In this document: positions 3,397 to 5,232 of the stretch, piece by piece
Layout: each line of letters starts with the position of its first letter
Numbering within the stretch: the stretch's first letter is position 1
NCBI GenBank assembly: GCA_017481395.1
Contig: JAFUPE010000089.1
Location: 1-19,302 of the forward strand
Direction of reading: 5' to 3'
Origin: Ruminococcus sp.
Lineage (GTDB): Bacteria; Bacillota_A; Clostridia; Oscillospirales; Acutalibacteraceae
Length of the DNA: 19,302 nt
Notes under the pieces: generated by a model
Told to the model about the DNA's origin: nothing
The model's input: the letters and a program-made list of their open reading frames with translations, nothing else
Database searches by the model: none
Made by a program: the position numbers and the translations under genes

Positions 3397-3909
3397 ATGA
3401 AAGCTAATGACAGGCGAAGGGAAATTGCCGCACAACTTTTGTCGGCTGATGGTCCTGTTTCGGGCAGTATGCTTGCCCAAAGGTTTGGTGTATCGCGTCA
3501 GATTATTGTGCAGGATATTTCACTCCTAAAAGCCTCGGGGTACGTTATTCTTTCAACTCACCACGGTTACATTGTGCAAAGCTCGCCTTTAAAGGAAAGG
3601 GTTTTTAAACTTAAGCACACCAAAGAGCAAACAGAAGACGAGCTTAATACCATTGTTGATTTAGGCGGTACTGTTGTTGACGTTTTTGTCTGGCACAAGG
3701 TCTACGGCAAGGTAGAGGCAAAGATGAACATTTTTTCACGTCTTCACGTTAAGCAGTTTATCGAAGGAGTACGAAGCGGAAAATCCACCGAGCTTATGAA
3801 CATTACAGGAGGTTATCATTACCATACGGTAAGTGCCGACAGCGAAGAAATCCTTGATAAAATAGAAAAAGCCCTCGACGAAAAGGGTTATATCGCGCCG
3901 GAAATATGA
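3397..3909 (+). CDS. niaR: NAD-biosynthesis transcriptional repressor NiaR (YrxA family)
   Basis: NiaR is the Firmicute repressor that senses niacin and controls NAD synthesis and niacin-uptake genes. The N-terminal part (about residues 5-60) is an HTH_11-type winged helix with a recognition stretch around RFGVSRQIIVQDI. The C-terminal part (about 70-170) is a 3H domain. His74, Glu82, His141 and His143 fall at the spacing of the four metal ligands I recall for the Thermotoga homologue, so a bound Ni/Zn ion is likely. The start has a GAGGT site. Its place as last gene of the nad operon implies autoregulation through the promoter at 292-321, and possibly control of the adjacent pnuC. The stop codon touches the pnuC promoter. 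Confidence 0.93.
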   Translation: MKANDRRREIAAQLLSADGPVSGSMLAQRFGVSRQIIVQDISLLKASGYVILSTHHGYIVQSSPLKERVFKLKHTKEQTEDELNTIVDLGGTVVDVFVWHKVYGKVEAKMNIFSRLHVKQFIEGVRSGKSTELMNITGGYHYHTVSADSEEILDKIEKALDEKGYIAPEI

Positions 3910-3938
3910 TTGACAAATTGTATTTTTCGGTATAAAAT
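3910..3938 (+). promoter_or_regulatory. SigA-type promoter of pnuC, starting at the niaR stop codon
   Basis: TTGACA (3910-3915) begins directly after the niaR TGA and is followed, 17 bp on, by TAAAAT (3933-3938). The predicted start is near 3945. An intrinsic-terminator-like hairpin follows before pnuC, so transcripts from here must pass a terminator to express the gene. Confidence 0.75.
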
Positions 3939-3944
3939 AAACTA

Positions 3945-4044
3945 ACTGCCACCGGGTAGTGAATGTTGTTGATTAAATCAAGCATTCGTTTACACATCAT
4001 TAGGTCTTAGAAGATGTGTACGCGAATGCTTATTTTTTTGGAGG
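3945..4044 (+). promoter_or_regulatory. candidate riboswitch/attenuator leader of pnuC
   Basis: Three helices can be drawn. P1 is ACTGCC (3945-3950)/GGTAGT (3955-3960) with loop ACCG. Alternative helix A is TGAATG (3960-3965)/CATTCG (3983-3988) closing TTGAT/ATCAA (3969-3973/3977-3981). The terminator is AAGCATTCG (3980-3988)/CGAATGCTT (4023-4031), a 2x2 internal loop, then TACACATC (3991-3998)/GATGTGTA (4013-4020), followed by T7 at 4033-4039 and the GGAGG ribosome site at 4040-4044. Helix A and the terminator compete for 3980-3988, so only one can form. This promoter-terminator-SD order is that of regulated attenuation. I do not recognise a published riboswitch class; the ligand is unknown and an NAD-related metabolite is only an inference. 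Confidence 0.6.
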
Positions 4045-4055
4045 CTTGAAGCTTT

Positions 4056-4745
4056 ATGAAAAATATAAAAAGTTATTTTTCTAAATTTGAAATATTCCTT
4101 TGGTGTATCTCGGTAATTCTAATTACCGCATCATTTATTATTTTTGACAGAATTAAATACCACACACCCCTTGCCTCGATTTTAGGCGTAACGGCAATTT
4201 TGCTTAATGCTAAAGGAAACCCTTTAGGACAGCTTCTTATGGTAATTTTCAGCCTTGTTTACGGCGTAATCTCTTACGGCTTTTCTTATTACGGCGAGAT
4301 GATTACTTATATCGGCATGACTATGCCAATGGCGGTTGTGGCACTTATAACGTGGCTTAAAAATCCCTTTAAAGGAAACAAAAGCGAAGTTAAGGTAAAC
4401 AGAATATCAAAAAAAGAAACCGCCTTTATGCTGATTATTTCGATAGCGGTGACAATTCTCTTTTACTTTATTCTAAGGGCTTTTAATACTGCAAATTTAC
4501 TGCCCTCTACTCTTTCGGTTACTACAAGCTTCATAGCTGTTTACTTAACAAGCAGGCGTAGCCCTTACTTTTCTTTGGCTTACGGTGCAAACGACGTAAT
4601 ACTAATAATTTTATGGGTAATGGCGGCTACCGATAACCCTTCGTATATATCTGTTGCGGTATGCTTTGTAATGTTTTTGGCAAACGATATGTATGCCTTT
4701 GTAAGCTGGCGAAAAATGGAAATCCGCCAACGTACATTTGACTAA
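4056..4745 (+). CDS. pnuC: PnuC-family nicotinamide riboside (NMN-type) transporter
   Basis: PnuC proteins are small membrane facilitators that import nicotinamide riboside or a related vitamin, which is then trapped by phosphorylation. The 229-residue protein has about seven hydrophobic segments. It carries the family signatures GNPLGQ in the first half, YYGEMITYIGMTMPMA near residues 77-92, LKNPF, and the second-half block with SRRSPY and AYGANDVILI. The GGAGG site at 4040-4044 is 11 bases from the ATG. Its position behind nadABC-niaR supports a role in NAD precursor salvage over another PnuX-family substrate such as thiamine. Expression probably depends on the switchable leader at 3945-4044. 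It is followed by a small gene 48 bases downstream without an intervening terminator. Confidence 0.9.
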   Translation: MKNIKSYFSKFEIFLWCISVILITASFIIFDRIKYHTPLASILGVTAILLNAKGNPLGQLLMVIFSLVYGVISYGFSYYGEMITYIGMTMPMAVVALITWLKNPFKGNKSEVKVNRISKKETAFMLIISIAVTILFYFILRAFNTANLLPSTLSVTTSFIAVYLTSRRSPYFSLAYGANDVILIILWVMAATDNPSYISVAVCFVMFLANDMYAFVSWRKMEIRQRTFD

Positions 4746-4793: not shown

Positions 4794-5198
4794 ATGGCAA
4801 GTAATATGTACAGAGTAAAATGCAGTTGCGGTAACGTTTTAGACGCAGGTGCAGGCAACGTTTGCCCTAAATGCAAGCAACCGATTAACTTTCCTCAGGG
4901 CGGTATGATTCACCTTTACCGCAAGGGCTCACCCTACGGCATTGCAGGCGGATTCGGCATTTACATCAACAACGTTCCTTTAGGCCACATCGGCAACAAG
5001 CAGACTGTTAACATTCCTGTAAGCTACGGCACATATACACTGCACGTTGCTGTTGGTATGAGCCGCAAATGTACAGATTTAACAGTAAACATCACACCCG
5101 AAAATCCCGTAGCATACGCAAAGGTTTACATCAAACCGGGATTCTGGGCAAATTCCTTTGTTATCGAGCCTTCTACAAAAGAAGAAATGCCTTTATAA
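4794..5198 (+). CDS. zinc-ribbon protein of unknown function with C-terminal beta-rich domain
   Basis: I do not recognise a named family. The 134-residue protein opens with a CxC...CPKC zinc-ribbon knuckle (Cys10, Cys12, Cys24, Cys27). From about residue 38 it continues with a beta-strand-rich, glycine-rich domain: IHLYRKG, GGFGIYINN, PLGHIGN, YGTYTLHVAVG. This pattern resembles DUF2846-like or PEGA-like small beta domains, but I cannot verify that. There is no signal peptide or membrane segment, so it should be cytosolic. It has a good AAGGAG site, enclosed in the loop of a short 7-bp hairpin (4757-4793), and is followed immediately by a strong terminator. It may be read from the pnuC promoter, since no convincing promoter lies in the 48-base gap. 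Confidence 0.75.
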   Translation: MASNMYRVKCSCGNVLDAGAGNVCPKCKQPINFPQGGMIHLYRKGSPYGIAGGFGIYINNVPLGHIGNKQTVNIPVSYGTYTLHVAVGMSRKCTDLTVNITPENPVAYAKVYIKPGFWANSFVIEPSTKEEMPL

Positions 5199-5202
5199 AA
5201 CT

Positions 5203-5232
5203 AATGCCGCACTACAAAGTGCGGCATTTTTT
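5203..5232 (+). terminator. intrinsic terminator after the zinc-ribbon gene
   Basis: ATGCCGCACT (5204-5213) pairs with AGTGCGGCAT (5218-5227) around loop ACAA, followed by a run of six T. The T-run touches the stop codon of the convergent symporter gene, so one hairpin separates the two converging units. Confidence 0.9.

Follow-up and report, generated by a model that had tools for sequence, protein, structure and literature searches.

The leader that precedes the pnuC-family gene in the analysed DNA of Ruminococcus sp. (a stretch of 19,302 nucleotides, referred to below as the window) is very probably a riboswitch of the guanidine-IV type (GGAM-1, mepA motif), predicted to switch pnuC transcription on in response to guanidinium or a close relative. 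Membership in this class is supported by the covariation among related leaders, by the way in which two covariance models find each other's members, by a kissing contact between two loops, by the architecture together with the gene set, and, more tentatively, by the spacing of residues in loop 2; the assignment is based on published text, architecture and gene set rather than on the consensus figure or alignment. Both the riboswitch class and its association with pnuC are already in print. The initial annotation had proposed a candidate new riboswitch class, which is not supported: the leader agrees with guanidine-IV as published, a class with which PnuC genes have already been associated. A likely misannotation is thus removed, as a leader resembling a new NAD riboswitch agrees with a guanidine class that is already known but that the Rfam copy used here does not see. 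A second and clearly more tentative proposal, which we regard as plausible without quite favouring it, is that the pnuC members may form a three-hairpin guanidine-IV subtype with an antiterminator, which would control new PnuC transporters of guanidinium or guanidine derivatives, with the WxxW motif traded for two invariant aspartates. No earlier description of the subtype with helix A or of the PnuC residue pattern was found in the literature examined, subscription papers lying outside it.

Architecture and conservation of the leader

The window carries nadA (366-1262) along with nadB and nadC, and niaR (3397-3909), whose stop codon at 3909 is followed by the leader and the pnuC-family gene. 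Directly after this stop lies the consensus promoter noted in the initial annotation, a sigma-70-type element, TTGACA-17-TAAAAT (3910-3938, plus strand), with 11/12 consensus matches. In 31 of 51 leaders, the 60 nt 5' of the motif also contained promoter-like pairs (at least 9/12), where a mononucleotide shuffle predicts 4.8; this fits a transcript start near 3945. The small hairpin expected at 3945-3960 was borne out. This P1 stem (3945-3950 with 3955-3960, 6 bp, plus strand) is closed by the tetraloop ACCG and constitutes the first half of the aptamer; the ACC of loop 1 (3951-3953) has its kissing partner GGU at 4003-4005. Helix A, an antiterminator hairpin on the plus strand, is real as well, but it spans 3961-3987 (3961-3966/3982-3987, with an inner stem 3969-3973/3977-3981) rather than 3960-3988 as first described. 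The intrinsic terminator (3980-4039, plus strand) is present as annotated, with its T7 run at 4033-4039. It is composed of a lower stem (3980-3988/4023-4031), a U3989-G4022 pair, a mismatch (3990/4021), the P2b stem (3991-3998/4013-4020) and loop 2, AUUAGGUCUUAGAA (3999-4012), which forms the second half of the aptamer inside the terminator and is near invariant in 50 pnuC leaders. The ribosome binding site GGAGG (4040-4044, plus strand) abuts the T-run, and the gene for the PnuC-family transporter (PF04973; 4056-4745, plus strand) comes next; it belongs to a subfamily without WxxW and with D180 and D211 (own numbering). The folding energy of 3945-4047 was -34.9 kcal/mol (z -5.2), a value equalled by 0/200 shuffles. 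The 3' strand of helix A (3982-3987) falls within the 5' half of the lower terminator stem, and the two helices are mutually exclusive. Such a leader was expected to control pnuC and not to end niaR, and the data support this; an ordinary niaR terminator was rejected as there is a promoter between niaR and the terminator.

The comparison of orthologous leaders suggested at the outset was carried out on 56 related loci, which had been collected by searching the genome collection for PnuC. The RNA was found upstream of pnuC in 51 of them; among the five without the full motif, two contigs begin at or inside the gene (L019, L050), one locus retains only the 3' part (L032) and two have none (L028, L033). 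The alignment A1 consisted of 50 distinct leaders, and L014 (identical in sequence to L006), the incomplete L032 and L051 were omitted from it. The pnuC leader of L051 (4839-4955) carries an extra loop-2 hairpin, which resembles feature D2 of the Gd4v RNAs discussed below. Two stretches were invariant across A1, ACCG in loop 1 and AGGUC in loop 2, and the linker was free to vary in both length and sequence. Standard pairs occupied 97.2% of the cells, and pairing dropped to only 29-43% when the partners were slid by 1-3 columns. Both sides had changed in 14/27 pairs (7.1 in shuffles) and in 101 cells (23.0 in shuffles), values that 0/500 shuffles reached; the P1 stem is among the covarying elements. 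This conservation and covariation exclude a chance origin of the leader fold.

Covariance models, gene contexts and riboswitch class

The covariance model R1, built from pnuC leaders, matched 20/398 genomes of the phylum and 52/245 of the class (both at E <= 0.01). The first downstream gene at 70 R1-match loci, which are partly non-independent, was assigned by BLAST to 11 Pfam-typed reference proteins and encoded PnuC in 36 cases, MATE in 14, a PNPOx-like protein in six and SMR in five; four were unassigned, and the remaining genes were radical SAM (two), DUF1989, NUDIX and PPDK (one each). A second model, R2, was derived from alignment A4, which holds non-pnuC members only (23 of the 30 assigned non-pnuC matches, with L062, L070, L071, L076, L078, L086 and L127 omitted) and lacks the lower stem, left unaligned by MAFFT. 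In the window, R2 gave a single match up to E 10, at 3944-4036 (59.1 bits, E 4.3e-12), and it recovered 51/56 pnuC loci. It also matched 22/398 genomes of the phylum (E <= 0.001), and in seven further loci that were inspected the downstream gene was MATE (three), SMR (three) or PNPOx-like (one). R1 also picked up the palindromic terminator in antisense, at lower scores (32 bits in the window, and a few other cases); this echo was absent in the window with R2. Among plasmids, one leader match was obtained, in a Subdoligranulum record (R1, 79.9 bits), and the viral contigs searched for a PnuC relative yielded none.

The Rfam search proposed in the initial annotation revealed no riboswitch in the window, with only unrelated sub-cut-off families at E <= 10 and none of the NAD classes among them. 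This silence is uninformative about novelty, since the same Rfam copy gave zero matches on seven SMR, MATE, PNPOx and DUF1989 member loci. At the gathering score, the pnuC loci examined (7 close, 13 distant) gave one T-box (L028) and tRNAs, but neither a guanidine or NAD riboswitch nor one for any other metabolite.

The initial annotation saw no pseudoknot like that of the NAD-II class, but the leader does contain a pseudoknot, the covarying contact between loop 1 and loop 2 (3951-3953/4003-4005). The outer kissing pair was A-U in 97, G-C in 13, G-U in six and A-C in none of 116 unique sequences (Fisher 4.9e-13, kinship ignored; 4/120 sequences, namely L117, L126, L128 and L129, were unparsed and omitted). 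In the non-pnuC set, the contact was paired in 23/23 members, with three pair types.

Guanidine-IV has been described as a motif with conserved loops, a pseudoknot and an intrinsic terminator within the motif, acting as an ON switch and associated most often with sugE, and also with MATE and PnuC genes (PMC7736828). Its aptamer comprises two distant loops, one of them in the terminator stem (PMC12186494), and both a kissing loop and an anti-terminator have been reported (PMC11611296). Guanidine is bound at about 0.2 mM and promotes read-through. The window RNA shares with this class a 5' hairpin and a Rho-independent terminator hairpin, whose conserved loops pair in a pseudoknot, and the sugE/MATE/PnuC gene set. 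The critical loop-2 nucleotides of the Lactococcus lactis RNA are G62, G66, U67 and G72. The G-U-x3-A-G spacing of the window (G4004, U4005, A4009, G4010) fits L. lactis G66, U67, A71 and G72, compared by published positions only, and on the same basis a counterpart of G62 would require a one-nucleotide shift. The position mapped to G72 was G in 50/50 aligned pnuC leaders. Compared with the published text, the pnuC members differ by the addition of helix A between P1 and P2, which was absent in the five SMR and six PNPOx members measured. Counting against the guanidine-IV reading are the sugE gene of a Paraclostridium bifermentans plasmid (L178, the sole named sugE locus examined), which had no match with R1 or R2, and the loop-2 16-mers of the pnuC leaders, which occur exactly in 0/5 SMR and 0/6 PNPOx members, where close variants stand instead; the energetic advantage of the terminator and the difficulty of export, both considered below, are to be added.

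A guanidine-IV-like variant that keeps the kissing-loop ON switch, but whose specificity has shifted to a derivative of guanidine or some other small cation that this PnuC subfamily would handle, is the alternative that survives best, although we consider it unlikely. Such a shift has been proposed for Gd4v, a variant of the guanidine-IV scaffold with another, unnamed ligand, gut-enriched and characterized by an extra hairpin, D2, on the terminator hairpin, which shows that the scaffold can change its ligand (PMC9788692). The gene classes of Gd4v include transaminase, GNAT and MATE, and 'pnuC' is absent from the main text of that paper. Many of the metagenome-assembled genomes considered here likewise appear, by title, to come from the gut. 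Moreover, the kissing pair was ACC/GGT in 81/83 pnuC members versus GCC/GGC in 4/5 SMR members, and the absence of helix A from the SMR and PNPOx members measured, the lack of the pnuC 16-mers in SMR members and the D2-like hairpin of L051 would also suit a variant ligand. However, the exact loop-2 16-mers of pnuC leaders recur in 8/14 MATE members (and in two unassigned loci), and loop 2 has 14 nt in each of the 50 aligned leaders, that of the window among them; the D2 hairpin is absent in 50/50, L051 standing outside the alignment. The G72 counterpart is retained throughout. The nucleotide that may correspond to Gd4v position D1 ('not G' in that motif) is G in 50/50 leaders. The scaffold is common to Gd4v and the window, and guanidine-IV itself remains the preferred assignment.

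The PnuC subfamily and the NAD neighbourhood

PnuC matches were found in 50/245 genomes of the class and comprised a close group (41 genes plus an additional fragment, counted from the list; 44-66% identity) and 13 distant genes (22-28%). The RNA was located upstream of 35/41 close genes and in the DNA around 0 of the 13 distant ones. Six close genes had no clear match: L157 lies at a contig edge, in L162 the motif is interrupted in loop 2 (21 bits), and the RNA was absent at L160, L161, L163 and L164. The interruption in L162 (minus strand) consists of about 280 bases with inverted-repeat-like ends. A similar insert was observed in L151 (the same gene as L117, minus strand; one of the 35), where P1 and the terminator are separated by about 279 bases whose ends likewise resemble inverted repeats.

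The conserved WxxW motif of PnuC binds the substrate (PMC7162841). This motif, found in TM6 of nicotinamide riboside (NR)-transporting PnuC, is missing from the window protein; a pairwise alignment shifts the stretch by one residue, and W is absent either way. In 90/90 distinct close-group sequences with letters, which include a few from genes without the RNA, the positions of W182 and W185 (4QTN) were occupied by A/S and Y/F, and the residues at 189 and 221 (4QTN) were both D. In distant PnuC proteins, W was found in 10/12 and 9/12 at the WxxW positions, and D in 3/12 and 0/12. Acidic residues of this kind would suit a cation. The riboswitch class suggests that the product of the neighbouring pnuC gene acts on guanidine or a related compound and not on NAD precursors. 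PnuC is a facilitated-diffusion carrier, a type that would not by its own action move a cation out of the cell against the membrane potential. The PnuCs linked to guanidine-IV have been proposed as possible guanidine exporters (PMC7736828), and among the openly accessible papers listed for guanidine with PnuC this is the only one on that link. The naming of a subfamily and its distinguishing residues makes this suggestion from 2020 testable.

The initial annotation considered NAD+, NMN and NR as obvious ligand candidates. A riboswitch for one of these compounds, feeding back on NR uptake, would agree with the name pnuC and with the fact that, in the window, L001 and L002, the gene comes directly after nadABC-niaR. 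We regard this explanation as highly improbable. The NAD genes adjoin pnuC only in these places (2/56 loci, flank lengths differing), and the DNA examined at the other 54/56, with some short flanks, contained no nadABC or niaR match (E <= 1e-8). The same RNA also precedes SMR, MATE and PNPOx genes, and the adjacent PnuC subfamily is without WxxW; moreover, the ON switch of the guanidine-IV architecture has the wrong sign for uptake feedback. The NAD+-II riboswitch (pnuC motif) also lies before pnuC genes. Described from Streptococcus, it possesses an internal-bulge aptamer and a pseudoknot able to mask the ribosome binding site, and its PnuC is, according to a legend in the paper, closest to a proven NR transporter (PMC7749635; PMC8632094). 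By this published description, it differs from the window RNA in structure and host.

The operator consensus of NiaR has been published for Streptococcus pneumoniae (PMC5343564). Allowing up to 3 mismatches, its sole match in the window was at 282-304 before nadA (3 mismatches; a match arose in 3/200 shuffles), overlapping a stretch that looks promoter-like by eye. This suggests niacin-responsive repression of nadABC-niaR through 282-304. No NiaR-operator-like site was found at the pnuC promoter under the same settings; such a site was rejected and the NiaR-linked mechanism mentioned in the initial annotation is unlikely at pnuC, since the consensus matches only before nadA. Given the rare adjacency and the location of the NiaR-like site before nadA only, the NAD genes and pnuC are probably separate units. 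Together with the missing WxxW, these observations count in favour of the guanidine-IV reading, and the pnuC-named gene beside nadABC is probably no NAD-precursor importer.

Helix A, the proposed switch and the downstream region

The mean energy of helix A in 83 pnuC leaders (L117, L128 and L129 omitted) was -5.26, compared with -3.72 when the linkers were swapped, and 0/200 swaps were as good (kinship ignored). Helix A reached -2 kcal/mol or better in 79/83 of these leaders versus 4/14 MATE members, for which the swap test gave no signal (52/200). At the same threshold, it was found in 0/6 PNPOx, 0/5 SMR, 0/2 radical SAM, 0/1 NUDIX and 0/1 PPDK members, and in 1/1 DUF1989 and 3/3 unassigned ones. 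This comparison of energies and swaps across gene classes indicates that helix A is mainly an addition of the pnuC type.

In the window, P1 and helix A together amount to -14.4 kcal/mol, the antiterminated fold with P2b to -22.6 and the terminated fold to -31.3, so that the terminator is favoured by 8.7 kcal/mol on secondary structure alone. Because of this advantage, switching should be either kinetic or strongly driven by the ligand. In the proposed mechanism, P1 and helix A would form once transcribed. When the ligand is absent, the lower stem would oust helix A and transcription would end at 4033-4039. The kissing of loop 1 and loop 2 may be stabilised by guanidinium, or by a closely related compound, while helix A persists, and this stabilisation would have to act before 4023-4031 invades, or else contribute much stability. 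The lower stem would then be late to close, and RNA polymerase would read into pnuC, whose product may handle the compound, probably by export, as suggested in PMC7736828.

An ordinary terminator or attenuator without a small-molecule aptamer, operated by a uORF, an RNA-binding protein or simply the 3' end of the niaR transcript, hardly deserves credence: the strong terminator with T7 and a 15-codon ATG frame at 3963, read by eye, would agree with it, but it is opposed by the invariant loops with their covarying tertiary contact, the leader's own promoter and the many gene contexts, and a conserved uORF, left open as a mechanism in the initial annotation, was rejected as unlikely, the linker varying freely in length and sequence.

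Some observations concern the DNA beyond pnuC. In L038 and L044, the gene after pnuC is PNPOx-like, as judged from a look at the translation, a type that stands behind the same RNA elsewhere. In the window, positions 4794-5198 encode a 134-aa protein without a Pfam or NCBIfam match, and the proteins encoded after pnuC in L001 and L002, which belong to one cluster, begin in a manner resembling it. The 134-aa gene is followed on its 3' side by a hairpin (5203-5228) that is terminator-like in both directions.
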